Both the position numbers and the translations under genes were made by a program. 64,000 bases of DNA from Chelativorans xinjiangensis. Lineage in GTDB: Bacteria; Pseudomonadota; Alphaproteobacteria; Rhizobiales; Rhizobiaceae. Below are positions 19,291-63,257 of the stretch, one piece after another. Below the pieces are notes generated by a model. It saw only the letters and a program-made list of their open reading frames with translations. It had not been told where the DNA came from and made no database searches. The DNA lies in NCBI RefSeq assembly GCF_009812055.1, contig NZ_WQNH01000009.1, forward strand, positions 124,001 through 188,000, given 5' to 3'. Numbering within the stretch: the stretch's first letter is position 1; each line of letters opens with the position of its first letter.

Positions 19291-19313
19291 ATGTCAGGGT
19301 TTTAATCCTCCAA
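19291..19313 (-). repeat. Recurrent polysaccharide-locus element, copy F
   Basis: On the minus strand it reads GGAGGATTAAAACCCTGACA then TG, a near-perfect match to the core seen upstream of other operons in the locus. It lies about 200 bases upstream of ugd but points the opposite way, toward the ParB/intron debris. It may be an orphan whose original gene was lost, or the element may work in both orientations. Confidence 0.6.
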
Positions 19314-19508
19314 TTCAAGAGAATTCACGCCTAAAATCAATCGGTTGCGTAGAATGCGAAGCGACCGGCGTGATGGAGGCATATCGGTTCTTCGATGGTC
19401 GTCTGAGGCGTTGGACGGCCACGAAAACATCGCCGTTAATGCCCTTATTCGCGGCGGTTCTTCCATTCGTGCGAGAGCTGAATGCTATTGCGGAAGTGGA
19501 GAAGCGTC

Positions 19509-20876
19509 TTGAGACTTGTCGTGATCGGTTCCGGCTATGTAGGGCTAGTAACGGGGGCGTGCCTGGCTGACTTCGGCCACACGGTCGTCTGTGTGGACAA
19601 GGACGCATCCAGGATCGACAGGCTGCGGCACGGAGAAATGCCGATCTACGAGCCCGGCCTTGAAGTGATCGTCGCCCAGAACGTGCGTGACGGGCGCCTG
19701 TCGTTCACCACGGACCTCGCTGGGTCGGTCACCGGCGCGGATGCCGTCTTTATCGCTGTCGGAACGCCATCCAGGCGCGGCGATGGCCATGCGGATCTCT
19801 CCTATGTCCACGACGCCGCGCGCGACATCGCCCGCGCCCTACAGGGCAATACCGTCGTTGTGACGAAATCGACCGTTCCCGTCGGCACGGGAGACGAGGT
19901 CAAGCGCATCATCCATGAACACAGGCAAAGCAGCGCCTTCAGCGTTGCCTCCAATCCCGAGTTTTTGCGCGAGGGCTCCGCCATACAGGATTTCAAGCAT
20001 CCCGATAGGATCGTTATCGGCGTGGAGGATGAGCATGCAAGCACGGTGATGGCGGAAATCTACAGGCCCCTGTTTCTCAACAAGTCGCCGATCCTGTTCA
20101 CCTCGCGCCGCTCGGCCGAACTGATCAAATACGCTTCCAACGCATTTCTTGCGATGAAAGTGACCTTCATCAACGAGATCGCGGATCTGTGTGAAAAGGT
20201 GGACGCAGACGTTCAGGAGGTGGCCCGAGGATTGGGCGCGGACAAGCGCATCGGGTCGAAGTTCCTCCATGCCGGTCCGGGGTTCGGAGGCTCTTGCTTC
20301 CCGAAGGATGCAATGGCTCTCGCCAAGACAGCCCAGGATCATGATAGCCCGCTGCGTCTGATCGAAACGACGATCGCGATCAATGACACCCGCAAGCGCG
20401 CCATGGCGCGCCGCATCATCCGTGCCGCCGGCGGCAACGTCCGTGGCAAGACGATCGCCATTTTCGGGCTGACGTTCAAACCGAACACCGATGATATGCG
20501 CGAAGCACCGTCGATCTCCATCATCCAGGCGCTTCAGGACGCCGGTGCCCATGTCAACGCCTACGATCCGAAAGGCATGGATCAGGCGCGTGCATTCTGG
20601 TCCGAGGTCACTTTCCATGCCAGCCCTTATGAGGCGGCCGAGAACGCCAGCGCCATCTGCATCCTCACCGAGTGGGAGCAGTTCCGCGCCCTGGATCTGC
20701 AGCGGCTGGAGAAGGTGGTCGCGCAACCGGTCCTGGTCGACCTGCGCAATGTATATTCGCACGAGGAAGCAAGGCGCTTTGGCTTCGCCTATTCAGGGAT
20801 CGGCTCGAGGTCCAGCACGCCAACGCATGTTATCGATCTGGCCGCTGCTCGCGATAGATTGGTGGAAGCCGTGTGA
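19509..20876 (+). CDS. ugd: UDP-glucose 6-dehydrogenase
   Basis: Cytoplasmic enzyme of 455 residues that oxidises UDP-glucose to UDP-glucuronate, a precursor of uronic-acid exopolysaccharide. The N-terminal Rossmann fold is IGSGYVGLVTGACLADFGH, with conserved KSTVPVGTG near 120 and NPEFLREGSAI near 150. The catalytic cysteine is in GPGFGGSCFPKD (about residue 263). The start is a TTG at 19509, preceded by GGAGAAG; the frame reaches back to 19482 but the Rossmann strand begins here. It is the first gene of the polysaccharide locus on the plus strand and ends in a strong stem-loop. The product feeds the uronate epimerase at the other end of the locus. Confidence 0.95.
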   Translation: MRLVVIGSGYVGLVTGACLADFGHTVVCVDKDASRIDRLRHGEMPIYEPGLEVIVAQNVRDGRLSFTTDLAGSVTGADAVFIAVGTPSRRGDGHADLSYVHDAARDIARALQGNTVVVTKSTVPVGTGDEVKRIIHEHRQSSAFSVASNPEFLREGSAIQDFKHPDRIVIGVEDEHASTVMAEIYRPLFLNKSPILFTSRRSAELIKYASNAFLAMKVTFINEIADLCEKVDADVQEVARGLGADKRIGSKFLHAGPGFGGSCFPKDAMALAKTAQDHDSPLRLIETTIAINDTRKRAMARRIIRAAGGNVRGKTIAIFGLTFKPNTDDMREAPSISIIQALQDAGAHVNAYDPKGMDQARAFWSEVTFHASPYEAAENASAICILTEWEQFRALDLQRLEKVVAQPVLVDLRNVYSHEEARRFGFAYSGIGSRSSTPTHVIDLAAARDRLVEAV

Positions 20877-20897
20877 CGAGCGGGTTGTGCGCCCGAT

Positions 20898-20928
20898 GGC
20901 CGACATCGCGTTTGCGGCGATGTCGGCC
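20898..20928. terminator. Stem-loop terminator between convergent genes
   Basis: A perfect 12-bp stem (GGCCGACATCGC/GCGATGTCGGCC) with a 7-base loop begins 22 bases after the ugd stop and lies before the 3' end of the convergent dehydratase gene. There is no clear T-run. Position and perfection of the stem support a bidirectional terminator. Confidence 0.7.
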
Positions 20929-21012
20929 TGATGTAGTCGTAGGCCTTCGGCAAAGTCCTTGCCACCTCCCAGCCAAGCGTTCCGAAAACCAAGACGTGTA
21001 TGAACGCCGCAC

Positions 21013-23184
21013 TCATGCGCTTCGGGCATGCGGGTCTGGCTTCAAGAACCAAGACGGAACCGGGCAACCCTCACATGTACACCGCGCGCGCTCGATTCCT
21101 ACATCTGAAGCATGGCTCACGGGGCGCGGGCGTTCGCTCTGGCTTGTCTGAAACCCCGGCAGAACGGTGCGGATCGAGGCGAAGAGACCTTCCGTGTCGC
21201 CTTCCAGAGCGCAGGTCTGCAGCCTTGCTAACACATCCTGCAGTACCGGGATGGGCACCGGCCTCGGCACCGCGCCGAGGACTCGTGGAACAGGTGGCGA
21301 AACTCTCGTTTCGGTCTCGTCGAAAAGCTCTTCGAACAGCTTTTCTCCCGGGCGACAGCCGATGATCTTGATGCGTACATCCTTATCCGGAGTGAAGCCC
21401 GCCAGACGGATCATGCGCCGGGCGATGTCAACGATTTTGATGGGTTCGCCCATGTCGAGCACGAAGATTTCGCCCTGCCCAAGCTCCTTCTCCAGACCAT
21501 ACGCGGAGGCCTGGAGGGTAAGTTCCACCGCCTCGCGAATGGTCATGAAAAAGCGCGTCATTTCGGGATGAGTCACCGTCAGCGGCCCGCCATGTGCCAG
21601 TTGGCGCTTGAACAAGGGAATGAGCGAGCCGCTTGAGCCGAGCACATTGCCGAAGCGCACCGTCATGAAACGGGGGGCGTCGGGCTGGTTCAAGCCTTCA
21701 AGATCGAGCGCCTGGCAATAAAGCTCGGCAAGCCGCTTCGTCGCACCCATGACGCTGCTCGAATTCACGACCTTGTCCGTAGAGATTTGCACCATACCGA
21801 GCGCGCGCCATCGCCGCACAGCATCGGCCACGTTACGCGTACCGCAGACATTGGTAAGCACCCCTTCACACGGGTTAAGCTCCACCATGGGCACGTGTTT
21901 CAGGGCGGCGGCATGGAAAACGAGCTCGGGCCTGTGCCGGAGAAAAACCTCGTTTACCCGGTGCGGGTCGCGCACATCGCAAAGATGCGGCGTTCTCGGC
22001 ACGTGGGCGAACTGTTCGGAGAGCTCAAGATCGATTGAATAGAGATTGAATTCGCAGTTGTCGATGACGGCGAGGTGCGAAGGCCCGAGCGCCGCCACCT
22101 GCTTCGTCAGCTCGCTACCGATCGATCCGCCGGCGCCGGTCACAAGCACGCGCCGGCCACGAATGAAGCGCTGGAGGGCGGCAACGTCGAGTGCTGCTTG
22201 CGGCCGTTCGAGCAAATCCGTGAGTTCGATAGGCCGCAGTTCGAACTCCTTCGTGACGCGGGTACTGCGCAGCTCTGTGACGGGATTGAGCCGGGAAATG
22301 GCCATACCCACGCGATCGGCCTGTTCGATCAGGCGTTCGGCCGCCTCTGCCTCGAAGGCGGAAGGCGCTGTGGTGAAGATGAGATGGCGCGGCCTTTGCC
22401 CGCGCGCCTCGCTATCCTCCATCACGGCCTCAAAATCCCCGGTTGTGCCGAGCACAGGGACGCCGCGAAGCGTCGTGCCGATCTCGGCCGGTGAATTATC
22501 AAGAAAGCCCACCGGCCAATAGGTGCAGTTGCGGTCGCGCTGAAGCGCGCGCAAATACAGATCGGCCTCGTGTCCTGCGCCGACGAGCAGGACGGGCAGC
22601 ATACAATCGGAATTCTCCGAAGCTGCGCGCACGGACGGCATCCGGATTTTGAGATCCTCCTGGCGGAAACTGAGCCGGACCGCCGCCAGCAGCGGGACGA
22701 GCGTCACGACCTCGATGGCGATCACGGAGCCCGGCACGAGGGCCAGCCCCGAGTAGAAGAACAAGCAGGCGGTGAGGATCGCCGAGGCAAAGAGAACGGC
22801 CAGCACAAGGACGATGTAGTCCAGGATCGAGGCGAATTCCCATTTCCGCTTGTAAAGACCGGCGGCCGGAAAGCTGACCGCACAAATCATCATGAACATT
22901 GCCGTTATCGAACCGACGGCGCTCGTGATCGCGGTATCGGCGAGAATCACTTGCGAACCGAGCCGAAGCCAGATCGCCACCACGAGTGCCACCGAGCTCA
23001 ATCCCAGGTCCACCGCATAAAGGTGGCGGTTGCGAATGGTCGACGTCACGACAGATTTGAGCTTGCAGCGGACCCAACGATAGAGGCGATGCTTGCCCGG
23101 GCCAACGATCAACGGCGGCAGCGGCGCCGGAATCTTCTGGAAACTCCGCGAATGCGCTCCTTTGGCAGCCAGGTTGTTGTCCAT
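21013..23184 (-). CDS. FlaA1/CapD/WbpM-like nucleoside-diphosphate-sugar epimerase/dehydratase, membrane-bound
   Basis: Protein of 723 residues. Four hydrophobic segments lie at about residues 55-165, followed by a CoA-binding-like Rossmann domain (VLLVGAGHEADLYLRAL). The C-terminal extended SDR begins VLVTGAGGSIGSELTKQV and contains QISTDKVVN and MGATKRLAE. The MxxxK form in place of YxxxK is normal for this family. It probably converts a UDP-N-acetylhexosamine to a 4-keto-6-deoxy sugar. The start at 23184 begins MDNNLAAKGAHSRSF, a peptide shared with the DegT gene at 30330. The promoter region overlaps the 3' end of the sulfotransferase gene and carries element copy A. Confidence 0.9.
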   Translation of the reverse strand: MDNNLAAKGAHSRSFQKIPAPLPPLIVGPGKHRLYRWVRCKLKSVVTSTIRNRHLYAVDLGLSSVALVVAIWLRLGSQVILADTAITSAVGSITAMFMMICAVSFPAAGLYKRKWEFASILDYIVLVLAVLFASAILTACLFFYSGLALVPGSVIAIEVVTLVPLLAAVRLSFRQEDLKIRMPSVRAASENSDCMLPVLLVGAGHEADLYLRALQRDRNCTYWPVGFLDNSPAEIGTTLRGVPVLGTTGDFEAVMEDSEARGQRPRHLIFTTAPSAFEAEAAERLIEQADRVGMAISRLNPVTELRSTRVTKEFELRPIELTDLLERPQAALDVAALQRFIRGRRVLVTGAGGSIGSELTKQVAALGPSHLAVIDNCEFNLYSIDLELSEQFAHVPRTPHLCDVRDPHRVNEVFLRHRPELVFHAAALKHVPMVELNPCEGVLTNVCGTRNVADAVRRWRALGMVQISTDKVVNSSSVMGATKRLAELYCQALDLEGLNQPDAPRFMTVRFGNVLGSSGSLIPLFKRQLAHGGPLTVTHPEMTRFFMTIREAVELTLQASAYGLEKELGQGEIFVLDMGEPIKIVDIARRMIRLAGFTPDKDVRIKIIGCRPGEKLFEELFDETETRVSPPVPRVLGAVPRPVPIPVLQDVLARLQTCALEGDTEGLFASIRTVLPGFQTSQSERPRPVSHASDVGIERARCTCEGCPVPSWFLKPDPHARSA

Positions 23185-23401
23185 CGTAGACAGACCTCTA
23201 AGCATGGAGCGAAAGAATGTCAGCGCCTGGTCAGCGACAGGCCCGTGGTGAAGATCTCGCCCTGCATCCATTTCGCCTTCGGAATGCCTTGAGGTCGCTG
23301 GATGAACCTCCCTATGGCGAGCGGCCCTTCCGAAGCTTTTGTAACTTCAGCCATTTTGCGGTAAGCGTGGAGGCCCGCACAGCAGCGGGAAACGCAAGGC
23401 G

Positions 23402-23440
23402 TGTCAGTTAAAGCCCTGCGATGGCTTCCGGTTTTGCGCA
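23402..23440 (-). repeat. Recurrent polysaccharide-locus element, copy A
   Basis: On the minus strand TGCGCAAAACCGGAAGC is followed by GCAGGGCTTTAACTGACA. Copies B and C share the whole 39-base block with few changes. It overlaps the last codons and stop of the sulfotransferase and lies 218 bases upstream of the FlaA1-like start, pointing at it. Confidence 0.75.
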
Positions 23441-31302: not shown

Positions 31303-31341
31303 TGTCAGGTTTTTCCTCCCTCCAAGCCTGCGGGCAGCTTC
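31303..31341 (-). repeat. Recurrent polysaccharide-locus element, copy D
   Basis: Minus strand reads GAAGCTGCC, a spacer, then GGAGGGAGGAAAAACCTGACA then TG. The GAAGCTGCC block is also in copy C. It lies between the divergent hypothetical gene (155 bases from its start, pointing at it) and the PL10-like gene (150 bases from its start). Confidence 0.7.
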
Positions 31342-36594: not shown

Positions 36595-36608
36595 GCCCCG
36601 TCCGAACG

Positions 36609-49859: not shown

Positions 49860-49869
49860 ACCGCGGCAT

Positions 49870-51890: not shown

Positions 51891-53024
51891 GTGAAGATCG
51901 CATTCGTCCTGTCGGGCCTCACCGCCGGCGGAGCAGAAAAGATCGTGAACCTCCTTGCGCACCACCGCAGCGACCAGGGTGATACGGTTTGTGTCCTCGC
52001 CATCAACGCCGCCGACACGCAGTCCTACTTTCCTTACGCACCTCAGATCGGGATCGAAACCTTGCGCGGGCGGCGGACGGGCTCTCTTTCGACGGCAGGG
52101 CTGCAGCTGCTTCGCCTTCGCCGGATGCTCCGGGCCCTCGAACCCGACCTCGTGGTCACGTTCCTGACGAAGGTCAATGCCCTGGTGGGATTGGCCGCTC
52201 TCGGGCTCAAGACACCCGTCATCATGTCTGAACGGAACAATTTCCTCTTTCAAAGGAAGAACCCCTACTGGCGCCTGCTAAGCCCGATCGCCGCACGCAA
52301 AGCCGCCTGCCTTGTCATGCAGACCGAACAGGCTCGCGCGGCCCTTCCCGCAGCACTGCGATCCCGGGCGGTGGTGATACCCAATCCGGTCACCCTCCCG
52401 CACGCAATCGCATCCGTTTCTAACGACAAGATCAGGATCGTGGCGGTGGGACGGCTGGACAAGCAAAAAGGATTTGACCTCCTGCTTCAAGCGTTCCGCC
52501 TGGTAGTGGACGACCTTGCAACCGCTACTTTAACCATCTTCGGCGAAGGACCGGAGCGCGGCGCGCTTAAGCGGCAGGCGCACGAGCTCGGGCTGTTCGA
52601 GCGCGTTAGCATGCCGGGCGTAACGTCCTCCCCGGCCGGGTGGATTTCCAAGGGCGACGTCTTCGTGCTGAGTTCGCGTTTCGAAGGTTTTCCCAACGTT
52701 CTGTTGGAAGCGCTGGCGGGCGGAATGCCCACGATCGCATTCGCCTGCCCGTGGGGGCCATCGGACATTTTGAAGAATGAGGTGGGGCTGCTCGTCCCGC
52801 CAGGCGACGTCGTCCAGCTCGGCGACGCAATACGCCGCCTCGTCGTCGACACAGCCCTCCGGCGCAAACTGGCGGCCGCTGGTCCCGCCATCGCCACGCG
52901 GTATTCCAAGAGCGCCGTGCTGGCACAGTGGGATGCGGTGATTTCTCGGGCAACGCAGCCGCGCCCGGCTACTCCCCTCGCGCCCGGCGCACATACAGCA
53001 CCCCGGTACCGTATCGGTCCGTGA
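51891..53024 (+). CDS. Glycosyltransferase family 4
   Basis: GT-B glycosyltransferase of 377 residues resembling GalNAc-alpha-1,4-transferase and amylovoran-type GT4 enzymes. It begins KIAFVLSGLTAGGAEKIVNLLA, with the GGAE acceptor loop. The middle has MSERNNF near 113. The donor site is IVAVGRLDKQKGFDLLLQAF near 183 and LSSRFEGFPNVLLEALAGGMPTIAF near 255-280. A GTG with GGGGG upstream is the start. Its last 56 bases overlap the convergent membrane glycosyltransferase gene. Confidence 0.9.
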   Translation: MKIAFVLSGLTAGGAEKIVNLLAHHRSDQGDTVCVLAINAADTQSYFPYAPQIGIETLRGRRTGSLSTAGLQLLRLRRMLRALEPDLVVTFLTKVNALVGLAALGLKTPVIMSERNNFLFQRKNPYWRLLSPIAARKAACLVMQTEQARAALPAALRSRAVVIPNPVTLPHAIASVSNDKIRIVAVGRLDKQKGFDLLLQAFRLVVDDLATATLTIFGEGPERGALKRQAHELGLFERVSMPGVTSSPAGWISKGDVFVLSSRFEGFPNVLLEALAGGMPTIAFACPWGPSDILKNEVGLLVPPGDVVQLGDAIRRLVVDTALRRKLAAAGPAIATRYSKSAVLAQWDAVISRATQPRPATPLAPGAHTAPRYRIGP

Positions 53025-54567
53025 TGCCGATATTCTCGACCGGGACATATCCATTGCGCTCGGCATAGGCCAGCAGCGGCGCCTCGAGACCGGCATCGAA
53101 GCCTAGAAGCAGAGCCGCCGGCGGGTCGGCATCGAGAAGCTGCCCGACCTTCGTGGGCGAGGTCATACGATAAAACCGGGCCAGTTGGGGCGGGGTGATG
53201 TCGGCAATGCGATAGGCGAACAGGCCGGTCGCCAGTTCAGGATAGACGTCAAGACCGCCTTCCAGCGGATAAACAGGCACCAAGGTGGCCACCTTCCCCT
53301 CGACGCCGGCTTCGGCAAGACGCTGCGCGATGGCCACACCGCCGTCATGCACCCGGCTTACGAGCCAGCGTTGCGGATGAATGGCCGTACCCATGTACTG
53401 GGAAAGCCGCGGAACCCCGAGCGCCAGCACGACGATCGTCGCGGCGAGGATTGTCGGCAACACCTGTTTGCGTGCATCAGGATCGAGCCCGGCAAACAGC
53501 ACCGCCAACGTCAACGGCAGGCATACGAGTGGCGGCGCGAAATATTGCGGAAACGCGGGCGTAGGCACGAAGCTCAGGAAACCGCTGAACGCAAGCGCGG
53601 CAAAAATGACAATGAGGGAGCCGAAAGGCAGCCGCCAGGCAGGCTGCCCAAGTGCTAGCCGCCATTGCACGCCGGCAATGGCCATGGTCATGGCAACCAC
53701 CAGTGAGACCGCAACCGCGCTGGTCAACCAGATATCGTAGGCAAGCAGGAATTTCTCCGCCAACGATACTGCAGCACCTTCTCCTCCACCCTGCCAATAG
53801 CGGACGTGCGGCCCCGTGTGATAGCCCACGACATGCGCAAGGAAGCGTGCCGGGTCGACGACAAGATAGAACAGAATGGGCAGACCGCCGACCAACCCAC
53901 CGACGGCCAAAGGCAGGACGACGCGCTTGACGCGTTCCCGGAAACGCAATGAGAACGGGAGGAAGAAGGCCGCGATGGCGATTGGGGGGACGAACGCCAC
54001 CGCGCTGATTTTCAACACCGCCGCAGCCGACAGGCAAAGTCCCGCCAAGCCGATCACAACAGGCTGTCCACGACCGCGATGCACCCCCAGTATGAAGAGG
54101 CCGATGCCCAGGAACGAGAATGGCAGTGGCAGCAGATTATTCGTTGCTGTCATTCCAGTCTCGGTAAGGAATAGTGAGTTGAGAAGCGAGAGAATGACGA
54201 TGCACCAGCTGACCAAGCGCGAGCGCGTCAAGGCAAAGCTGACGAATCCGATCGCCGCGGCAAAGATGAGCCACCCGACCAAAACACCGAGGCGGCCATT
54301 GAGCAGCAGGTAGTCGGATCCGGTGAGCTGTCGAACGGCATAGAACCACCAGGCAGACCCCGGGACGTGATTGTAGAAGAAATCCTCATAAAGCCTGTTC
54401 TCGTCCAGCAGACGCATGGGCGGAACGTAAAGCCCTTCATCGCGCCGCAACTCATAGTTCATGATCCGCACGGCAAGAGAGACGACCAGATAAGCCGAAA
54501 TGACAGCCATCGCGCCGGTGAGCAACGTGGATCTTGTCTCGTCTTTGTGTTCGACCAACTTGTGCAT
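52969..54567 (-). CDS. GT39/ArnT-like polytopic membrane glycosyltransferase
   Basis: Integral membrane protein of 532 residues with about eleven hydrophobic segments. The first periplasmic loop carries YELRRDEGLYVPPMRLL (about 38-54), the Asp-Glu motif of the GT-C superfamily (PMT/ArnT type). The C-terminal about 120 residues are soluble and periplasmic. Such enzymes transfer a sugar from a polyprenyl-phosphate carrier in the periplasm. It may use the lipid-linked sugar made by the GT2 at 60544 with GtrA. It converges on and overlaps the GT4 gene; a copy of the recurrent element lies 160 bases upstream. Confidence 0.82.
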   Translation of the reverse strand: MHKLVEHKDETRSTLLTGAMAVISAYLVVSLAVRIMNYELRRDEGLYVPPMRLLDENRLYEDFFYNHVPGSAWWFYAVRQLTGSDYLLLNGRLGVLVGWLIFAAAIGFVSFALTRSRLVSWCIVILSLLNSLFLTETGMTATNNLLPLPFSFLGIGLFILGVHRGRGQPVVIGLAGLCLSAAAVLKISAVAFVPPIAIAAFFLPFSLRFRERVKRVVLPLAVGGLVGGLPILFYLVVDPARFLAHVVGYHTGPHVRYWQGGGEGAAVSLAEKFLLAYDIWLTSAVAVSLVVAMTMAIAGVQWRLALGQPAWRLPFGSLIVIFAALAFSGFLSFVPTPAFPQYFAPPLVCLPLTLAVLFAGLDPDARKQVLPTILAATIVVLALGVPRLSQYMGTAIHPQRWLVSRVHDGGVAIAQRLAEAGVEGKVATLVPVYPLEGGLDVYPELATGLFAYRIADITPPQLARFYRMTSPTKVGQLLDADPPAALLLGFDAGLEAPLLAYAERNGYVPVENIGITDRYGTGVLYVRRARGE

Positions 54568-54726: not shown

Positions 54727-54741
54727 TGTCAGAAAAACCAG
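54727..54741 (-). repeat. Partial copy of the recurrent element (copy I)
   Basis: Minus strand reads CTGGTTTTTCTGACA, keeping the T/A-rich run and CTGACA but not GGAGG. It lies 160 bases upstream of the GT39-like gene, pointing at it. Confidence 0.4.
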
Positions 54742-54765
54742 TCAGCGCTAACCCTGACAACTGAA

Positions 54766-54783
54766 GAGGGCTTTACCTGACAG
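54766..54783 (+). repeat. Recurrent polysaccharide-locus element, copy G
   Basis: Plus strand reads GAGGGCTTTACCTGACAG, closest to copy A (GCAGGGCTTTAACTGACA). It lies 265 bases upstream of rfbF and points at it. A second CCCTGACA lies at 54752-54759. Confidence 0.65.
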
Positions 54784-55047
54784 CCGCATTTCTTGCGGAC
54801 TTTCATGACATGCATTAGAGTTATGTTCCATAAGGAATGGAATAGACTTATTTTTTTCAAATCATTGTTGAGTATTGAAAGAAGAATAATATCACTTTTT
54901 ACTATGGAATTCTACAGAATTTGTGAAATGCGCTTGGGAAAATGGAAATACTGAAGCAATCACGCCTGTATTAGGCACGCTCTCCCGAGTAGGGCAACCC
55001 GAGTTGGTGCCTGAACTTCAGCTCAGGCAAACACGCGCGAGGCCGTT

Positions 55048-55890
55048 ATGAAAGTGGTACTTCTCGCAGGAGGTCTCGGCTCTCGACTAGCCGAGGAGAC
55101 GCAACGGATCCCGAAACCGATGGTGGAGGTCGGGGGCCGCCCGATCATTCTGCATGTCATGGACATATACAGCCAATGGGGCTTTCGCGACTTCATTGTC
55201 GCAGGCGGCTACAAATGCATGCTGATCAAGAGCTTCTTTCATAATTTCCACCTTTCCACCGCCGATTTCACGGTGGCGCTCGGAAACGGCTCGATGATCC
55301 TGCGGCCGAATCGGCCGCTGGATTGGAACGTCTCGGTTGTTGATACGGGCGTGCCGACGATGACCGGCGGCCGCTTGTTGAACCTGCGCAGCTGGCTCGA
55401 CCGCGACACCTTCATGGTCACCTATTCCGATGGCCTGGGCAACATTGACCTCGAAGCGCTTCTGAATTTCCACCGTTCGCACGGTCGACTGGCGACGGTG
55501 ACGGCTGTTCAACCACCCGCGCGCTTCGGAAATCTGGAAATCGAGGGCGAACAGGTCGTCCAATTCACTGAGAAAGTCCGCAAGCATGAGACCTGGATCA
55601 ATGGCGGCTTCTTCGTCTTCGAGCCCGGCGTTCTCGATTACATCCCGGGCCCGAGCGAACCGCTCGAGAAGTCACCGTTGACGAATCTGGCCTTGGACGG
55701 CGAGCTCTTTGCCTACAAGCACAGGGGCTTCTGGCATCCGATGGACACCGTTCGCGACCGCGACGTCCTCGATGGCCTGTGCGAAACCGGCGAGCCTCCA
55801 TGGCTGCAGTTCGAGCAAGACGATGTCTCGCATGTGAGCTCTTCCGCTCCGCAATTCGAGATTGCAGGCGATGAACGCACCTCTGGATGA
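55048..55890 (+). CDS. rfbF: Glucose-1-phosphate cytidylyltransferase
   Basis: Cytoplasmic enzyme of 280 residues making CDP-glucose from CTP and glucose-1-phosphate. The nucleotidyltransferase signature is KVVLLAGGLGSRLAEETQRIPKPMVEVGGRPI at residues 2-33. The RfbF-specific region IVAGGYKCMLIKSFFHNF is near 51, VTYSDGLGN near 130 and ETWINGGFFVFEP near 180. It is the first gene of a seven-gene plus-strand operon and sets the CDP-sugar branch. Its stop lies 20 bases inside the next gene. The upstream region has element copy G and an AT-rich stretch. Confidence 0.95.
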   Translation: MKVVLLAGGLGSRLAEETQRIPKPMVEVGGRPIILHVMDIYSQWGFRDFIVAGGYKCMLIKSFFHNFHLSTADFTVALGNGSMILRPNRPLDWNVSVVDTGVPTMTGGRLLNLRSWLDRDTFMVTYSDGLGNIDLEALLNFHRSHGRLATVTAVQPPARFGNLEIEGEQVVQFTEKVRKHETWINGGFFVFEPGVLDYIPGPSEPLEKSPLTNLALDGELFAYKHRGFWHPMDTVRDRDVLDGLCETGEPPWLQFEQDDVSHVSSSAPQFEIAGDERTSG

Positions 55891-57019
55891 AACCTGCCTT
55901 GCGCAGGCATTCCGTGGCCGCCGCGTCCTCGTCACCGGTCACACCGGCTTCAAGGGCGGATGGCTGTCCCTTTGGCTAAGCCGCCTCGGTGCCACTGTGG
56001 TGGGGGTCTCACTGCCGCCGGCGAGGCCATCCTTCTGCACGGCGGTCGCAATCGAGGACCTCGTTGACAGCCGCATCGGTGATATCCGTACAGAAAGCGG
56101 CTTACGCGAGGCGATCGGCGGGCTTGATTTCGACCTTGTCATTCACTTGGCGGCACAGGCGATCGTTCGTACGTCCTACGAGGCGCCCGTCGATACCTAT
56201 TTGACCAATGCCGTGGGAACGGCGGTGGTCCTGGAATCAGCGCGCCGGATGCCGTCGCTGCGAGGCGTAATCGTCGTCACGAGCGACAAGTGCTATGAAA
56301 ACCGGGAATGGACATGGCCTTACCGCGAGAACGATCCTATGGGCGGTCGGGACCCTTACAGCTCTTCGAAGGGCTGTGCAGAGCTTATTGCGGCGGCCTA
56401 CCGCGCCTCTTTCTTCAACAATATCGGCGGTCCACAGCTTGCGACAGCGCGCGCGGGCAATGTGATCGGCGGGGGGGATTGGGGGGCCGACCGGCTGGTT
56501 GCCGACCTCGCTCGCTCGGCAAGCACCGGCATACCCACGCGTATTCGCAATCCAGCCAATGTACGGCCCTGGCAACATGTGCTCGAGCCGATCCGCGGCT
56601 ATCTGATGCTCGGCGCCCGCCTCCTCTATGACGGTCACCGCGTCGCGGACGCGTGGAACTTCGGGCCCGGCGCAGATGCCGACGTCAATGTCGGTACGCT
56701 CGCCAGCCTGGTCGTCTCGAAATGGCGGGGAGAGTGCCCCGACTATGTGGTGGACCGTCAAGAAGACGAACCGCCGGAATCGGTCGTACTGCGGCTGGAC
56801 AGCACGAAAGCGCGCGTTGGTCTTGGCTGGAAGCCCTTGTTGCGCCTCGAAGACGCGGTCGCGATGACGGTCGAATGGTATCGCACATATAACCAGGAAC
56901 CGTCTCGGATACGAGCGTTCTCACATCAACAGATCAGCGACTATGCCGGGCGTTGGACCATGGCCGACGAAGGACAGCCCGCGCCTGGCGAGCGTAAGGA
57001 GGTCGCCACATGCGCGTGA
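55871..57019 (+). CDS. rfbG: CDP-glucose 4,6-dehydratase
   Basis: Extended SDR of 382 residues converting CDP-glucose to CDP-4-keto-6-deoxyglucose. The NAD site is VLVTGHTGFKGGWLSLWL at about 18-35. The catalytic region has VVTSDKCYEN and DPYSSSKGCAE (YxxxK intact, about 155). GDWGADRLV is also family-typical. The ATG at 55871 is used; a TTG nine bases earlier is possible. It overlaps rfbF by 20 bases and the next gene by 10, so translation is coupled throughout. Confidence 0.94.
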   Translation: MNAPLDETCLAQAFRGRRVLVTGHTGFKGGWLSLWLSRLGATVVGVSLPPARPSFCTAVAIEDLVDSRIGDIRTESGLREAIGGLDFDLVIHLAAQAIVRTSYEAPVDTYLTNAVGTAVVLESARRMPSLRGVIVVTSDKCYENREWTWPYRENDPMGGRDPYSSSKGCAELIAAAYRASFFNNIGGPQLATARAGNVIGGGDWGADRLVADLARSASTGIPTRIRNPANVRPWQHVLEPIRGYLMLGARLLYDGHRVADAWNFGPGADADVNVGTLASLVVSKWRGECPDYVVDRQEDEPPESVVLRLDSTKARVGLGWKPLLRLEDAVAMTVEWYRTYNQEPSRIRAFSHQQISDYAGRWTMADEGQPAPGERKEVATCA

Positions 57020-58254
57020 ATTACGGTCAATCCGTTTACGGTGAGGACGAAATCGCAGCCGTTTTGGGGGTCCTGCGTTCCTCCACACAGATGGGCGAGC
57101 GGGTGCGGCGGATGGAGCAGCGCGTCGCCGCGCTCTTCTCCAAGCGGCACGGCATCATGGTGAACTCGGGATCCTCCGCGAACTACCTGGCGGTCGAACT
57201 GCTCGACCTGCCGCGTGGTGCAGAAGTGATCACCCCTGCCCTCACTTTCGCGACAACCGCCGCTCCGATCGTGCGGAAGGGCCTGACCCCCGTCTTCGTC
57301 GATGCCGCGGAAGGCACTTACAACATCGATGTCACGGCGATCGAGCGTGCCATCTCGCCCAGAACGCGGGCCATGATGATCCCTTCCCTGATTGGAAACC
57401 TGCCGGATTGGGACCGCATCAGCTCCATCGCGAAAGCACATAAGCTCATCGTCATCGAGGACAGCGCAGACACGCTCGGCGCCACGCTCAACGGCATCAG
57501 CACTGGAACCCGCTCTGAGATCAGCACGACCAGTTTCTACGGCTCACACGTGATCACCGCCGCGGGCAACGGCGGAATGCTTTGCGTCAATGACGACGCG
57601 CTTGCCCGCCGCGCACTGCTCCTACGTTCGTGGGGGCGGACCTCCTCGCTCTTCGTTGAATCCGAGACGATCGAGAACCGCTTCAATGTCGTCCTGGATG
57701 ACTTCGAATACGATGCAAAATTCGTCTTCGAAGAAATGGGTTTCAATATCGAACCGTCGGAACTGGGCGCGGCATTCGGACTGGTTCAACTCGACCGGCT
57801 GGAGCAGAACATCGCCGCGCGCGAACGCAATTTCGCGACCCAATACGCCTTCTTCAAGGATTATGAGGACTGGTTCGTGCTTCCGCGGCAGCGATCCGGA
57901 TCGCGCACCGGCTGGCTCGCCTTTCCCCTGACAGTCAGGCGTGAGGCGCCCTTTAGCCGGCGCGAAATGCAGATCTTTCTCGAGCAGAGAAACATTCAGA
58001 CGCGCCCGGTCTTCACCGGAAACATCCTACGTCAACCCGCCATGGCCAATGTCGAACACCGGGCGGAGGCGAGCGGTTATCCGGTGGCCGACGATGTGAT
58101 GCGCGGGGGAATCCTGCTCGCCTGCCATCATGGCCTCACCGCCGATCAGTTGGACTATCTTCATGAATCCTTCCGCGAATTCGCAAAACGCATCTCAACC
58201 GCGCGTCCGGCAACAGGCGTGGACCCTGTTCGCTCGGCTCAAATGGGAGCTTGA
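57010..58254 (+). CDS. PLP-dependent sugar 3-dehydrase, RfbH/ColD-like, without iron-sulfur cysteines
   Basis: DegT-fold protein of 414 residues. The usual PLP lysine is replaced by His in SFYGSHVITAAGNGG (H180), as in RfbH (E1) and ColD, which remove the C3 hydroxyl rather than transaminate. NSGSSANYL near 52 and VIEDSADTLGA near 148 are normal PLP-pocket blocks. The [2Fe-2S] cysteine cluster of E1, expected just after the RxWGR motif, is absent: the segment reads SWGRTSSLFVESETIENRF. The whole protein has only two cysteines. It should therefore work in the ColD manner. The product would be a CDP-3,6-dideoxy-4-keto sugar. Confidence 0.88.
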   Translation: MRVNYGQSVYGEDEIAAVLGVLRSSTQMGERVRRMEQRVAALFSKRHGIMVNSGSSANYLAVELLDLPRGAEVITPALTFATTAAPIVRKGLTPVFVDAAEGTYNIDVTAIERAISPRTRAMMIPSLIGNLPDWDRISSIAKAHKLIVIEDSADTLGATLNGISTGTRSEISTTSFYGSHVITAAGNGGMLCVNDDALARRALLLRSWGRTSSLFVESETIENRFNVVLDDFEYDAKFVFEEMGFNIEPSELGAAFGLVQLDRLEQNIAARERNFATQYAFFKDYEDWFVLPRQRSGSRTGWLAFPLTVRREAPFSRREMQIFLEQRNIQTRPVFTGNILRQPAMANVEHRAEASGYPVADDVMRGGILLACHHGLTADQLDYLHESFREFAKRISTARPATGVDPVRSAQMGA

Positions 58255-58256
58255 CA

Positions 58257-59513
58257 ATGGCTTGCCTCACCCAGTGCCGTGCCTGCCTTGCATCGGAGCC
58301 ATATCTTTTCTTGCCAATGGGCGATCATCCACCGGCCAACGGCTTCGTACGCGCCGAAGACGTCGCGAGAGACTGTCCGGCTTATCCGCTGGATACCCAG
58401 GTGTGCCTGGAGTGCGGGCTGATTCAGGTGGCCGATCAAATCCCCGAAGGGTTTTTCGAGCACTACCTTTACGTACCCTCTAGCGCAACCAGCATGCACG
58501 GTCATTTCGCGGAGCTTGCCGAGATATTGAAGCGGCAAGCCGGCACCGGGTTGATCGTAGATATCGGCTGCAATGACGGTTTGTTGCTTTCCGCCTGCAA
58601 CATACTCGGCAGCACCACCCTTGGCGTGGACCCTGCCGCCAATCTGGCCGAAATCGCCCGGTCGCGCGGTGTCGACGTGGAGGTCGGTTATTTTTCGGCC
58701 GCCGCAGCACAAGGTCTGGCGGACAAGCACGGCCGCGCGAAAGCGATCGTCACGACAAACACCTTCAACCATATCGGCGACGTCCACGATTTCATGAGAG
58801 GGATCGTCCGCTGGCTCGCCGAAGACGGCGTCTTCGTCATCGAGGTTCCTTGGGCAAAGGACCTTCTGGAGAAGAATGAGTTCGACACGATCTATCACGA
58901 GCATGTCTCTGAATTCAGCCTGCTGTCGCTGGTTAAACTCGGCGCGTTCTTCGACCTGACGGTCGTGGACGTCCATCGCCTCGGTGTGCACGGCGGGTCG
59001 ATGCGGGTCTTCCTGAAGCGGAGTGCTGCCGCCACTGCTGTCGAGCCGGTCGTCGCAGAGATGCTGGCCGAGGAACGTGCGGCCGGAATGTGTTCCATGG
59101 CGGCCTATCAGGTTTTTTCCGACCGGATCGAGAGTATCCAGAGCGATCTGACTGCCATGCTGGCAGAGCTCAAGGCTCAGGGGCTACGGATTGCCGGCTA
59201 TGGCGCGCCCGCAAAGGGCAACACCCTTTTGAACTTCTTCAAGATCGGACCCGAGACGCTCGACTATCTCGTCGATCGCAACCCACTCAAGCAGGGGCTT
59301 TATTCTCCTGGAATGAAGATCCCAATCCGCCCGCCCGAGGCGCTGGAAGAGGACAGGCCTGATGTCCTCCTGGTCCTGGCCTGGAATTTCTTCGATGAAA
59401 TCCGTGAGCAGCAGAGCGCGTTCGCGGCAAGCGGCGGACAGTTTCTCGTGCCTTTGCCGAGCCCGGTCCTGATCCCGGACCGCACGAGCATTCGCTCGAT
59501 GCCGGCAGCGTAA
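58257..59513 (+). CDS. Sugar C-methyltransferase (zinc-binding N-terminal domain plus SAM and C-terminal domains)
   Basis: Protein of 418 residues of the TylCIII/TcaB9 class. The zinc domain has CxxC at C7/C10 and CLECG at C50/C53. The SAM domain starts GLIVDIGCNDGLLLSACNIL near 100, with TTNTFNHIGDVHDF near 160. The catalytic-loop-like EVPWAKDLLEKNEFDTIYHEHVSEFSLLSL lies at 195-225, where Tyr-His-Glu-His is the C-methyltransferase hallmark. A C-terminal Rossmann-like domain has AGYGAPAKGNTLLNF. It adds a methyl branch to a keto sugar nucleotide, probably the product of the preceding dehydrase. The ATG follows the dehydrase stop by two bases. Confidence 0.92.
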   Translation: MACLTQCRACLASEPYLFLPMGDHPPANGFVRAEDVARDCPAYPLDTQVCLECGLIQVADQIPEGFFEHYLYVPSSATSMHGHFAELAEILKRQAGTGLIVDIGCNDGLLLSACNILGSTTLGVDPAANLAEIARSRGVDVEVGYFSAAAAQGLADKHGRAKAIVTTNTFNHIGDVHDFMRGIVRWLAEDGVFVIEVPWAKDLLEKNEFDTIYHEHVSEFSLLSLVKLGAFFDLTVVDVHRLGVHGGSMRVFLKRSAAATAVEPVVAEMLAEERAAGMCSMAAYQVFSDRIESIQSDLTAMLAELKAQGLRIAGYGAPAKGNTLLNFFKIGPETLDYLVDRNPLKQGLYSPGMKIPIRPPEALEEDRPDVLLVLAWNFFDEIREQQSAFAASGGQFLVPLPSPVLIPDRTSIRSMPAA

Positions 59514-59536
59514 GCGACTTCGGATGAGGTGAAGGC

Positions 59537-60547
59537 GTGCACCGAAGATTGCGGATATTGATCACTGGCGGAGCCGGCTTTGTTGGCTCCCATCTGGCGT
59601 GCGCCTGTCTCAAGGAGGGGCACGAGGTCCATGCGGTGGTCCGCGAGCCTTCGCGCGGGGACCGGCTGCGGCGCTTCGAACGCGATATCGTTTTACATCG
59701 TTTCGATCTGCGGTCCGATCTGGAACTGAAGTGGTGCATTCGGGATGTCGCCCCCCAAGTAGTCTATCATCTGGCGGCATCTCTGCGACGTCCCGAAGAC
59801 ATGCAGTTTACGGACGTCACGGACTGTCTTAGCGAAGACGTTCAAATCCTGGTCAACCTCTTGAGTGCTGCAGCCAATAGCCGCGTCCCGCCGTCGGCCG
59901 TTGTCCGGACCGGATCGCTCGCGGAGTATGGGTTGGCGCCTCGCCCCTATCGTGAGGACATGCGCGAAGAGCCGATAACGGTCTATGGCGCCGGCCTCGT
60001 CGCCGCCACCCATCTTGTCGGCGCGTTGCAGCGACGGCTTCCTTTCCTTGTCGCCACCGCCCGTCTTGCCTTGGTATACGGTCCGGCACAGTCGACCGAG
60101 TATTTTGTGCCGTGGCTCATCCAACGCTGTCTGGCGGGTGCGCGTTCGATCGTTCGCCGCCCTGATGACCGTCGGGATCTGATCCATGTCGACGACGCTG
60201 TCTCGGCCCTGATCCAGATGGGAACCGTATCCCTGCCAAAGGCCGCTGTTATCAACATCGCAACTGGCGTTGCGCCAAGTATGCGCGAGGTGGCGCGCCA
60301 GATCATTGAGATAACGGGCGCCGATCCCGGCCTCGTCAAATATGGTGCCGGCAATCCGCTGCATGGCGCGCCCGACCTACGGGGCACACCCGATCTAGCC
60401 CGCCAATTCCTCGGATGGAGTGCCCGTGTCCCGTTGGCGGAAGGCATTTCGCGCCTGGTTGCGTGGCATCGCGACAGCACCGCTTGCGCTTCGTATTTGG
60501 AACGACCCTCGAGCGCTCGCGAGCACAACAGCATGGGAGCAGGATGA
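59537..60547 (+). CDS. NAD-dependent epimerase/dehydratase (extended SDR), atypical active site
   Basis: Protein of 336 residues. The NAD loop TGGAGFVGSHLACA is at about 10-23 and YHLAASLRRPED near 80. The catalytic region reads VVRTGSLAEYG then VYGAGLVAATHLV: the Tyr is there but the Lys of YxxxK is Leu. The proton relay is therefore altered. In the operon it should be the final C4-ketoreductase that gives the branched CDP-deoxysugar. With the Lys missing, another role, such as a binding or scaffold protein, is possible. It starts with GTG after GAGGTGAAGG and its stop overlaps the GT2 start. Confidence 0.82.
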   Translation: MHRRLRILITGGAGFVGSHLACACLKEGHEVHAVVREPSRGDRLRRFERDIVLHRFDLRSDLELKWCIRDVAPQVVYHLAASLRRPEDMQFTDVTDCLSEDVQILVNLLSAAANSRVPPSAVVRTGSLAEYGLAPRPYREDMREEPITVYGAGLVAATHLVGALQRRLPFLVATARLALVYGPAQSTEYFVPWLIQRCLAGARSIVRRPDDRRDLIHVDDAVSALIQMGTVSLPKAAVINIATGVAPSMREVARQIIEITGADPGLVKYGAGNPLHGAPDLRGTPDLARQFLGWSARVPLAEGISRLVAWHRDSTACASYLERPSSAREHNSMGAG

Positions 60548-61593
60548 TGGTCGCTACGTTGCCGTTGACGGTCTCCGTTCTGGTGCCCGTCTTCAACGAA
60601 GAAGCCAACGTCCGACGCGCCTATGCGGAGATCGTGAACACGTTCCGCGATCTTCCGGATTACGACTGCGAAATCATCTTCACCGACAATCATTCCACGG
60701 ACGGCACATTCGAAATCCTCAGGGAGATATGCAGCCTTGATCGGCGTGTGCGCGTCATCCGTTTCAGCCGCAATGTCGGATATCAGCGCTCGCTTTTGAC
60801 CGCTTACAAGGCGGCGCGCGGTGCCTGCTCGATCCAAATCGACTGCGACCTCCAAGATCCGCCACACCTGATCCCTCACATGCTCACCCGGTGGCGGCAG
60901 GGCCATCAGGTCGTCTACGGCATCCGGCGCTCGCTCACCGACAGTCGACTGACGGCGCTGATGCGTCGCATCTTCTACCGCTGCATCAATGCGCTCAGCG
61001 ACGACGACCTACCGCTTAACGCCGGCGAGTTCAGGCTTGTCGACCGGTGCATCCTGGACGAGCTACGCCATGTCGACGACACCTCGCCCTATCTGCGCGG
61101 TCTCATCAGTTCCATGGGCTTTTCGCAGGTTGGGTTCGACTATGACCGGCAAGCCCGCGTGGCCGGTGAGAGCAAGTTCCCATTCAAGGCCATGCTGTCG
61201 CTCGCCGTCGACGGTATTCTCAACCACTCGCTGATCCCGCTCAGGCTCGCCTCAATTGCAAGTCTCGTCGTCGGAACGGGAACCTTCCTGCTCCTCGTCG
61301 GCTATCTGATTGGAAAGCTGCTGTTTGGGCAGGACTGGCCGGCCGGTTTTGCCACCACAGCCGCGCTGCTACTGCTTTCCATCACGCTCAACGCGATGTT
61401 CCTGGGAATCGTCGGCGAGTATATCGGGCGCATTTTCATGCAGTCGAAACGGCGGCCTGTACCGATCGTGGAGGCAACGCTGAACGACAGGACCGGCCCC
61501 ATGGAAACGACCACCTTGCCCGCACGGGAGCCGATACAATGCCTGGACCGTATAGCGTCCTCCGGATCGAGGGCCTCGAGCGCAGTGTCTTGA
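60544..61593 (+). CDS. GT2 family glycosyltransferase, DPM1/GtrB-like
   Basis: Protein of 349 residues. The GT-A fold starts VSVLVPVFNEEANVRRAY; the substrate Asp motif is FTDNHSTDGT near 45 and the DxD-type IQIDCDLQDPP near 100. Two C-terminal membrane hairpins (about 230-255 and 270-300) end in GEYIGRIFMQSKRRP. This is the GtrB/ArnC/DPM1 architecture: it makes a polyprenyl-phosphate sugar at the inner membrane. The ATG overlaps the preceding stop (ATGATGG). The gene overlaps gtrA-like by 55 bases. The donor may be the CDP-sugar of this operon or UDP-glucose. Confidence 0.92.
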   Translation: MMVATLPLTVSVLVPVFNEEANVRRAYAEIVNTFRDLPDYDCEIIFTDNHSTDGTFEILREICSLDRRVRVIRFSRNVGYQRSLLTAYKAARGACSIQIDCDLQDPPHLIPHMLTRWRQGHQVVYGIRRSLTDSRLTALMRRIFYRCINALSDDDLPLNAGEFRLVDRCILDELRHVDDTSPYLRGLISSMGFSQVGFDYDRQARVAGESKFPFKAMLSLAVDGILNHSLIPLRLASIASLVVGTGTFLLLVGYLIGKLLFGQDWPAGFATTAALLLLSITLNAMFLGIVGEYIGRIFMQSKRRPVPIVEATLNDRTGPMETTTLPAREPIQCLDRIASSGSRASSAVS

Positions 61594-61946
61594 CGACAGC
61601 GCGCTTCGCTGTCGTGGGTGCGATCACCACCACGTTGGACGTGGTTCTCTTCACGGGTTTCGTGCTGATGTCGATCGCGCCGGCACTTGCAAACGTCCTT
61701 TCCTACTCCAGCGGGATCTTGGTGAGCTACCAGCTCAACCGCTCATGGACCTTTGGCGCCGGTAGGAGCTATGTGCAGGCGATCAAGTTCGTCGTGTCGA
61801 CTTTGGCCGGCCTTCTGCTCTCCACGGTTCTGGTTGCTTTTCTGGCGACTTTGATCCCCGCCCCGGCCGCAAAGATCGTGAGCGTGCCTATCGTCTTCGT
61901 CTGGAATTATGTTGTGGTTCGCCTGTGGGTTTTTCAGGCGCAGTGA
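61539..61946 (+). CDS. GtrA-like family flippase
   Basis: Membrane protein of 135 residues with four hydrophobic segments and the GtrA opening RFAVVGAITTTLDVVLFTGF. The NRSWTF block (about residue 68) and the VWNYVVVRLWVF end are family-typical. GtrA proteins translocate a polyprenyl-phosphate-linked single sugar across the inner membrane. It overlaps the GT2 gene and probably presents that product to a periplasmic GT-C enzyme, for which the GT39-like gene at 52969 is the candidate. It is the last gene of the CDP-sugar operon. Confidence 0.9.
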   Translation: MPGPYSVLRIEGLERSVLTTARFAVVGAITTTLDVVLFTGFVLMSIAPALANVLSYSSGILVSYQLNRSWTFGAGRSYVQAIKFVVSTLAGLLLSTVLVAFLATLIPAPAAKIVSVPIVFVWNYVVVRLWVFQAQ

Positions 61947-61956
61947 ACGAAAAGCT

Positions 61957-62961
61957 TCAAGCGACGGCTTCAGCTTTGCGGCGGGTATAGCCTGCGTAGC
62001 CCCGGTACCATGCGACGAACTCCCCCAGGCCATCCGACAGGCTTGTGGATGGCTGGAAGCCATAGTCGGCCTGCATGCTTTCGATGTCGGCATAGGTCGA
62101 AACGACGTCCCCTGGCTGCATCGGCTCATAACAGATCGTCGCGGAGTGTCCGGTGTGTTGCTCGATGAGCCTGACCAGATCGATAAGCTTCGACGGACGG
62201 TTATTCCCGATATTATAGACGCGATGCGGGTGCTTGCCAGGAAGGAAGACGGGGGATCTAACCGTCGAAACGACCCCCGACACGATGTCGTCCACATGCG
62301 TGAAGTCGCGCATCATGTTGCCGTTGTTGAACATCCGGATCGGACGTCCTTCGAGCACCGATTTGGTGAAGATCCAGTAGGCCATGTCCGGCCGCCCCCA
62401 AGCGCCGTACACGGTGAAGAAACGCAGCCCGATCTGCCTCAGGCCGAAGAGGCTGGCATAGGCTTCACTCGTCAGTTCGTTGCTTCGTTTGGTCGCTGCA
62501 TACAGGGATTTCGGATTGTCGACGCGATCTGCTTCGCTGAACGGCACCTTGTTGTTGTCACCGTAGACAGAACTCGAAGAGGCATAGACGAGATGTCCCA
62601 ATCCTTCCCAATGCCGGCAGGCTTCGAGGACGGACAGATGCCCGACCACATTAGACCGCGCATAAGCAAAAGGGTTTTCGAGCGAATAGCGAACCCCGGC
62701 CTGCGCGGCCAGATGAACGATGACGTCCGGACGTTCCGCCCTGACCAAGGCGCTCAATGCCTCGGTGTCGGCGATATCTATTTTCTTGAAGCGAGCGCGC
62801 TTGCCGAGCACGTCCAAACGGGCCCGCTTCAGTGAAACAGGATAGTAGTCGTTGAGATTGTCGATTCCGATGATCTCGTCACCACGCGCGGCCAGCCTCA
62901 ATGCGGTATGGAACCCGATAAAGCCAGCTACGCCTGTCACGAGCACTTTCACGACTTGCAT
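61957..62961 (-). CDS. UDP-glucuronate 4-epimerase-like NAD-dependent epimerase
   Basis: Extended SDR of 334 residues. The NAD loop is VLVTGVAGFIGFHTALRL, followed by GIDNLNDYYPVSLKRARL (about 33-50), the hallmark of UDP-glucuronate epimerases. HLAAQAGVRYSLENPFAY is near 84 and SLYAATKRSNELTSEAY has an intact YxxxK. The block FTVYGAWGRPDMAYWIFTKSVLEGRPI is also diagnostic. It interconverts UDP-glucuronate, made by Ugd at the far end of the locus, and UDP-galacturonate. That fits the two pectate-lyase-like enzymes. It converges on gtrA-like with an 11-base gap. Element copy H lies 280 bases upstream. Confidence 0.93.
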   Translation of the reverse strand: MQVVKVLVTGVAGFIGFHTALRLAARGDEIIGIDNLNDYYPVSLKRARLDVLGKRARFKKIDIADTEALSALVRAERPDVIVHLAAQAGVRYSLENPFAYARSNVVGHLSVLEACRHWEGLGHLVYASSSSVYGDNNKVPFSEADRVDNPKSLYAATKRSNELTSEAYASLFGLRQIGLRFFTVYGAWGRPDMAYWIFTKSVLEGRPIRMFNNGNMMRDFTHVDDIVSGVVSTVRSPVFLPGKHPHRVYNIGNNRPSKLIDLVRLIEQHTGHSATICYEPMQPGDVVSTYADIESMQADYGFQPSTSLSDGLGEFVAWYRGYAGYTRRKAEAVA

Positions 62962-63239
62962 CCTTCTTCGGCGCGTCGGTCAATATCGCCGTTTCGCGCC
63001 GTTTCCAGCACCTCGTAGAAAACTACCCTGCGTGCTCAAGCCGTGGCGAGACGTGGTTTGCCCACCTTGGACAGCGCGCTGCACTTCCATGAAGCGGAAG
63101 CTAGCCGTCGGCGGGAATATTACGCCCCAATACGATTTAAAAAGGATATTAATGAGTTACAGCGCTCCTTACATCCAAGGGATCAGAACCTCCTGACCAT
63201 ATTCCCGCCCGCGCGCCCACGAAACGTGGCGAGGGCTCC
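62962..63239. other. Leader of the uronate epimerase gene
   Basis: About 280 bases without a gene. The stretch 63115-63165 is AT-richer and may contain the promoter. No terminator or RNA gene is visible. Confidence 0.35.
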
Positions 63240-63257
63240 GGTCAGGTTTTCCCCGAC
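63240..63257 (-). repeat. Recurrent polysaccharide-locus element, copy H
   Basis: Minus strand reads CGTCGGGGAAAACCTGACC, keeping GGGGAAAACCTGAC of the core. It points at the uronate epimerase gene about 280 bases away and lies at the edge of the integrase remnant. Confidence 0.55.

Follow-up and report, generated by a model that had tools for sequence, protein, structure and literature searches.

Introduction

Regulators that act on polysaccharide or biofilm genes through defined DNA elements have been described in several bacteria, as far as the accessible excerpts of the sources report. RcsB, a response regulator of the FixJ/NarL family, acts via a short operator near promoters that include that of the capsular cps operon (PMC5829831), the response regulator SypG directly controls the syp polysaccharide locus of Vibrio fischeri via a named sequence element (PMC12369376), and VpsT regulates biofilm genes of Vibrio cholerae via a degenerate palindrome (PMC8754643). 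Here we analyse an element that recurs in a polysaccharide locus of the rhizobial species Chelativorans xinjiangensis, within a window of 64,000 nucleotides (contig NZ_WQNH01000009.1, positions 124,001 to 188,000; the window is the whole stretch of DNA that was analysed, and all positions below are counted from its first base). By protein family and domain matches, the locus spans about 19.4 to 63 kb of the window. On the basis of sequence comparisons we propose that the element is probably the operator of a two-component system encoded in the same locus, whose response regulator would bind it and activate eight transcription units.

An element confined to one locus of its genome

Recognisable copies are present at all eight places, A to H, that a preliminary description of the window had called clear, each either intergenic or overlapping the 3' end of a gene. 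They exceed chance, as judged by a whole-genome scan, a leave-one-out test and a cross-genus scan. The whole-genome scan (5.69 Mb, E≤10; 150 of the 457 first-look candidates scored), made with a sequence-only model of the 24 copies that three species have at the eight sites, recovered A to H and no other place; such a model necessarily matches its own training sites, and the information lies in the absence of further matches. All eight matches fall within 44 kb. When each site was scored with a matrix built from the other seven, against the 377,970 positions of the 189 kb contig with the other sites set aside, the numbers of better-scoring positions for A to H were 0, 1, 0, 0, 1, 2, 0 and 3.

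The sole invariant part of the 24 copies is CTGAC. The consensus printed in the preliminary description, GGAGGATTAAAACCTGACA, has zero matches in the window even at three mismatches, because the G-run and CTGACA are not a constant distance apart, the interval differing by several bases among copies; owing to the same variable spacing, an exact consensus search and two degenerate patterns gave nothing useful. A loose regular expression gave a single stray match on the contig beyond the locus, and another in the corresponding stretch of a related genome, G006.

Of 15 genomes of the genus that were searched, two, G004 and G006, have the locus in the same order, except that GT4b (48583–49767) is not at its place in G006. 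In the intergenic alignment of the three species, A to G are well kept amid diverged flanks; H is kept in G006, and in G004 lies elsewhere within the same upstream region. In G006, with GT4b not at that place, E precedes the conserved part of the operon's next gene by about 200 bases. Several details of the preliminary description are borne out: A overlaps the stop of the sulfotransferase gene, C overlaps the stop of the deacetylase gene, and the longer TGCGCAAAACCGGAAGC-like block common to A, B and C is kept in G004 and G006. Its weak copies I (54727) and K (44742) are conserved in neither genome, and K also lacks CTGAC. Three copies had been missed, a second one by E, a second one by G and a weak one before the kinase gene.

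Two promoter architectures

Copies A, B, C and G have their CTGACA side toward the promoter, about 20 (A, B, C) or 9–11 (G) bases from the −35 box. Element A (23402–23420, minus strand, CGCAGGGCTTTAACTGACA) is assigned to the PseB-like gene (21013–23271, minus strand), with TGTGCG at the −35 position (23376–23381; TTTGCA in G004) and a −10 box CAAAAT at 23353–23358. Element B (30495–30513, minus strand, TGGCAGGGTTTAACTGACA) is assigned to the PseC-like operon, which runs on the minus strand from 30408 to about 23404, with a −35 box TTTGCA at 30469–30474, and element C (37404–37422, minus strand, CGGAGGGAATTAACTGACA) to small open reading frames (ORFs) and the carbamoyltransferase gene (34753–36612, minus strand), with TTTGCA at 37378–37383 and CAGGAT at 37355–37360. 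Across 14 promoters of this type (nine from the three species and five orthologs of A), the summed match to TTGACA and TATAAT at a spacer of 17 peaks 20 bases after CTGACN, at 6.0 of 12, compared with 4.86 one base away and at most 4.29 elsewhere. A small ORF without a Pfam match (36882–37295, minus strand) lies between element C and the carbamoyltransferase gene, in a region kept in G004 and G006.

Element G (54764–54782, plus strand, AAGAGGGCTTTACCTGACA) stands before the CDP-sugar operon (55048–61593, plus strand), with TTGCGG at 54793–54798 and TAGAGT at 54816–54821. Its distal tandem copy (54741–54759, plus strand, GTCAGCGCTAACCCTGACA, CTGACA at 54754–54759) lies 23 bases upstream and is kept in G004 and G006. 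In an alignment of 17 genomes, G-type promoters read AGGGATTATCCTGACA, 9–11 bases, TTGCGG, 17 bases and TAGCAT or a close variant, and most have a further copy of the element 23 bases upstream; boxes and second copies are weaker in G017 and L067.

The sites D, E and F have the opposite orientation and overlap the −35 region, where the −35 boxes are, by eye, poor. Element F (19292–19311, minus strand, GGAGGATTAAAACCCTGACA) has TAAAAT at 19332–19337, element D (31303–31321, minus strand, AGGGAGGAAAAACCTGACA) TAGACT at 31344–31349, and element E (49837–49857, plus strand, AGGAGGATTAAAAACCTGACG) TAACCT at 49811–49816, which is TATCTT in G004 and G006. Read backwards, these sites have a −10 peak at offset 40–41 of 4.0 of 6 (nine sites, one base of play), versus at most 2.67 in the other direction; without play the values are 2.89 and 2.0, and with four E-type sites from other genera added the peak is 3.85. 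A CTGACA side facing the promoter was rejected for D, E and F, as no −10 peak is found there. The position of the −10 boxes therefore assigns D to the pectate-lyase-like and GDSL genes on the plus strand (31455–34431), F to the UDP-glucose dehydrogenase gene (19482–20876, plus strand), and E to the export and assembly operon on the minus strand (49767 to 37410, about 12 kb). Accordingly, the earlier claim that all copies but F point at the nearest downstream start fails for D and E, whose conserved −10 box is on the other side, like that of F. The second copy by E (49859–49877, plus strand, CTGACA at 49872–49877), 20 bases from it, is found here and in G006 and has diverged in G004. Element H (63240–63258, minus strand, CGTCGGGGAAAACCTGACC) is upstream of the epimerase gene (61957–62961, minus strand).

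A fixed helical spacing to conserved −35 and −10 boxes was thus found for A to G. Imperfect boxes are to be expected, since the −10 region of sigma70 promoters is poorly conserved in Sinorhizobium meliloti, according to the excerpt of the source (PMC3616915).

The kinase and the response regulator

Two plus-strand genes adjoin in the middle of the locus. One encodes a histidine kinase with HisKA_3 and HATPase_c domains (50352–51149; start inferred from the alignment, ORF from 50298), and the other a LuxR/NarL-type response regulator, the proposed binder of the element (51146–51805; start inferred from orthologs); with these starts the genes overlap by four bases. The Pfam matches of the regulator, Response_reg (83.6 bits) and GerE (57.5 bits), place it among the NarL/FixJ (LuxR-type) proteins by domain content, and it is similar to the solved VraR, NarL, DesR and DevR (1e-33 to 8e-30). 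None of the NCBIfam models listed for the regulator is matched above its cut-off. Residues D23, D24, D69, T97 and K119 are invariant in eight orthologs, and the helix-turn-helix (HTH) helix is nearly so. Such D, D, D, T and K residues form the phosphoacceptor pocket of response regulators. A weak candidate site, CTACAGGTAAATCCTGACA, precedes the kinase gene (50144–50162, plus strand), with a counterpart in G006 and a diverged sequence in G004; autoregulation through it is possible. Between E and the kinase gene there is also a dyad, GTCAGGTGGGATCACCTGAC (49985–50010), in a stretch absent from G004 and G006.

Co-occurrence across genomes

Matches to the regulator (E≤1e-40) occur in 11 of 201 genomes including its own, nine of them at least 56% identical and those of G144 and G191 42% and 38% identical. 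A scan of named genomes gave 80 loci, 19 of which have a regulator 58–91% identical. Between the sulfotransferase gene and the PseB-like gene the element is present, as in the window, in five loci of other genera (G199, G160, G040, G174 and G017). Upstream of PseB-like genes it was found in 8/8 regulator-linked cases versus 0/21 in genomes without a regulator match at that threshold; this comparison covers 30 loci of the 49 matches, the thirtieth being G096. Before the CDP-glucose gene it was found in 17/17 genomes with an ortholog in view and in none of nine paralogs (48–51% identity). These A-type and G-type copies lie about 130–370 bases before the gene starts.

A matrix trained on the three starting species only gave 17 hits of at least 14 bits in 17 loci of other genera (L063–L079), where 58 control loci would predict 2.66 and ten shuffles 1.5. 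These hits are spread over 13 of the 17 loci, and L069 and L071 reach 12–13 bits. With the model R1 (E≤1), 19 regulator-less relatives yielded three hits in total, and five of the 11 regulator-bearing genomes yielded 25 (7, 6, 8, 2 and 2), 22 of them in the locus. The off-locus hits (G006:C9:375411, E 0.365; G199:C2:411206, 0.211; G160:C14:26078, 0.182) could be chance or further targets. No clear sites were seen in L080, in L082 or in the more distant regulator relatives G144 and G191.

The loci that share element and regulator differ in gene content. The genomes of G199, G160, G040 and G174 have no match to the CDP-glucose gene (E≤1e-80) anywhere, and G096 has the CDP-sugar set and no PseB-like gene nearby.

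Other features of the locus

Besides the enzymes already named, the locus encodes glycosyltransferases, a flippase, a formyltransferase, Wza-like and Wzc-like export proteins, lyases and a CDP-sugar set (CDP-glucose, CDP-glucose dehydratase, RfbH and C-methyltransferase genes); many of these names are best matches below curated cut-offs. Outside it, the window has a strong Rfam match to group II intron domain D1-D4-4 (17385–17522, plus strand, 91 bits), at an odd location, antisense inside the ORF of a BTAD/AAA (SARP-like) protein (13902–17657).

Proposed mechanism and alternatives

Co-ordination of the locus by a shared operator has good support from the distribution and conservation of the copies, their fixed spacing to promoters and their co-occurrence with a response regulator gene. 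Of the earlier suggestion that the element is a shared operator or an antitermination signal, the operator part is supported and the part invoking antitermination and JUMPstart is not; no binding protein had been named. In the mechanism that we infer, a signal would lead the kinase (50352–51149) to phosphorylate the regulator (51146–51805), which would contact the element through its CCTGACA half and would activate, rather than repress, weak sigma70-type promoters of eight transcription units. These would be the units for UDP-glucose dehydrogenase (F), the PseB-like protein (A), PseC, flippase, glycosyltransferase and sulfotransferase (B), lyase and esterase (D), carbamoyltransferase (C), export and assembly (E), CDP-sugar synthesis (G) and the epimerase (H). 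The second copies at G and E, 23 or 20 bases away, fit binding by more than one dimer; A to C perhaps have degenerate ones, by eye.

The possible ancestry of the site comes from a relative of the regulator in Methylobacterium variabile, 46% identical, in a 20.6 kb locus where, among the window proteins tried, the kinase and regulator alone found a match. Two perfect palindromes, TGTCRGG-N5-CCYGACA, which contain the half-site of the element, lie no more than 5 kb from this relative. This pattern was absent from all 300 shuffles of the Methylobacterium locus and from L061–L079, and control loci of 901 kb in total contain it once; these counts are post hoc because the pattern was defined after the Methylobacterium sites had been seen. 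The copies in the window have 0–1 mismatches to the right half, and A, B, C, D, G and H have 1–4 to the left half; E and F fit poorly, with six left-half mismatches. The element may thus be a half-degenerate form of the palindrome, with the same post hoc proviso.

A Caulobacterales locus, L083, has a regulator relative 40% identical and no match to any window protein other than the kinase and regulator. It is the best hit of R1 among the 80 loci, with an element-like site at 6775–6796; at 4075–10648 the regulator lies, by eye, beside a multi-domain kinase resembling a bacteriophytochrome, a small heme-oxygenase-like gene and a transporter-like gene.

Several observations weigh against an operator read by this regulator, among them the post hoc status of the palindrome counts and the poor fit of E and F. 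Within the window, the kinase–regulator unit has a weak candidate site only, the minus-strand gene 52969–54567 has no assigned site, and no promoter boxes are resolved at H. Two reversed E-type sites, in L063 and L066, fall outside the −10 count, their −10 box (TATCTT) lying, by eye, 11 bases further. Among the other genera, no copy in L068 or L072 scores above 9.7 bits, and the hit at 14235 of L066 is probably chance, its counterpart in L063 scoring 10.8. The scores of true and control sites touch: for the PseB-like gene L166 has 10.2 versus 10.1 for L191, a margin decided by position, strand and sequence, and for the CDP-sugar gene L144 has 11.8 versus 11.9 for L149, which lacks CTGAC followed by A. 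R1 at E≤1 found nothing in six of the 11 genomes with a regulator match, and is therefore taken to be insensitive outside the genus, and three of its 25 hits in regulator-bearing genomes are off-locus. G096 has the regulator, yet its PseB-like gene is 465 kb away and has no element. The Ensifer loci L070 and L076 have no kinase ORF directly before the regulator, which lies at about 10.0 kb, though the CDP-sugar element is kept, and no recognisable element was seen in the six Wza/Wzx divergent regions of Ensifer and Sinorhizobium looked at.

Some of these points favour an operator for a different regulator, either another locus protein or a chromosomal factor, with the response regulator just travelling with the locus. 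Regulator and operons are co-inherited, hence their linkage is confounded; the PseB-like gene of G096 and the regulator-bearing Ensifer loci without an export-region element fit such a situation, and, as a further point against the response regulator, three locus proteins without a Pfam match (ORFs at 41075, 44796 and 52969) are other possible binders. We consider this unlikely. The three hits over 19 regulator-less relatives speak against a general chromosomal factor, element and regulator occur together in loci of differing gene content (G199, G160, G040 and G174 as against G096), and the diverged Methylobacterium regulator, without the polysaccharide genes of the window around it, has the same half-site near it as a perfect palindrome.

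Binding by the response regulator could also mean repression, with the promoters blocked by the sites as long as no signal lifts the block. Sequence does not tell the two directions of control apart, and the sites D, E and F overlap the −35 region, a common position for repressors. On the other hand, the −35 boxes are, by eye, poor where a site overlaps them, and the sites A, B, C and G stand ahead of the −35 box by 20 or about 10 bases, which is typical of activators; repression is thus, in our estimate, slightly less likely still than a different binder.

That the element acts as a transcribed signal, for example in JUMPstart/ops antitermination or as a riboregulator, is very improbable. The distance of the A-type and G-type copies from their genes is that of leader elements, but the element lies upstream of the predicted −35 box or overlaps it, in both orientations relative to the promoter. 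The predicted RNA fold on the tested strand (one per copy) is no better than shuffles (z −1.68 to 0.81), and no Rfam family matches at the sites. The window has a single ops core (GGCGGTAG), at 32240–32247, inside a gene and more than 900 bases from the nearest copy. That the element is a functionless dispersed repeat or mobile sequence, as several similar copies in one region and the longer block of A, B and C might suggest, is hardly credible given that no further copy was found in 5.69 Mb and that copies are kept at orthologous places amid diverging flanks and in several genera.

Beyond activation of the eight units by the regulator, we tentatively suggest, as a possibility to which we give somewhat less than an even chance, that regulator and operator form an undescribed portable control unit of Rhizobiales surface-polysaccharide loci. 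Regulator and asymmetric operator would stay together while the sugar genes are swapped; the operator would derive, through loss of one half, from symmetric TGTCRGG-N5-CCYGACA, which sister regulators paired with other kinases would still use, and the site would be used either way round at different helical registers. Linked to one particular regulator gene, the element is a concrete starting point in the sequence for asking how a large Rhizobiales polysaccharide locus of many operons may switch as a unit, and makes regulon members predictable from sequence in about twenty genomes. Its copies, symmetric to half-degenerate, forward or reversed, single or tandem, are a natural series for testing how NarL-type regulators read DNA.

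Relation to known systems

SypG is encoded within the syp locus, several of whose operons have its element in front of them. The likeness is that a response regulator controls a polysaccharide locus through a sequence element; the difference is that SypG is sigma54-dependent, whereas the Pfam matches of the window regulator are a receiver domain and GerE/sigma70-region-4-type HTH domains only. Sigma54 promoters of the −24/−12 type were rejected, with 28 matches at up to two mismatches versus 30.9 expected; the one match within 100 bases of any copy (63272–63287, plus strand) lies 14 bases from H, and the gene downstream of H is on the other strand. VpsT is LuxR-type. Unlike the regulator proposed here it acts with c-di-GMP, and its palindrome, WR[CG]YWWR[GC]YW, is shorter than the element and differs from it.

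The GacA/UvrY box, TGTAAG-N6-CTTACA, shares the half-site shape TGTnAG and a NarL-type regulator with our system. This box has four matches at up to three mismatches versus six by chance, none at A to H and one at the rejected K (44744), and the regulator scores 110 bits against a cut-off of 280 for the GacA family. MctSR (NCBIfam NF052443/NF052445) is the best-scoring curated family for both regulator and kinase, and each falls far short of the cut-off, at 142 of 300 and 80 of 700 bits.

The excerpt of a review on how rhizobia control exopolysaccharide mentions ExoS/ChvI and quorum regulators of the LuxR type, not the window regulator (PMC8227245), and the CCTGACA in the excerpt of PMC4327974 is part of a primer. 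Among the matches listed from open-licence PMC articles, titles and abstract beginnings describe neither the element nor the regulator, a statement about those records and not about absence from print.

The RcsAB box of the enterobacterial capsule (colanic acid) genes is similar in that a FixJ/NarL-family regulator acts on polysaccharide genes through a short operator, and differs in that RcsB works with a partner, RcsA. A consensus of this box (TAAGAATATTCCTA) has no match in the window at up to three mismatches, and the regulator reaches 56 bits versus a cut-off of 235 for RcsB. The operator and its regulon thus appear to be new, while the proposed mechanism, a response regulator acting on polysaccharide genes via a short element, is of a known sort.

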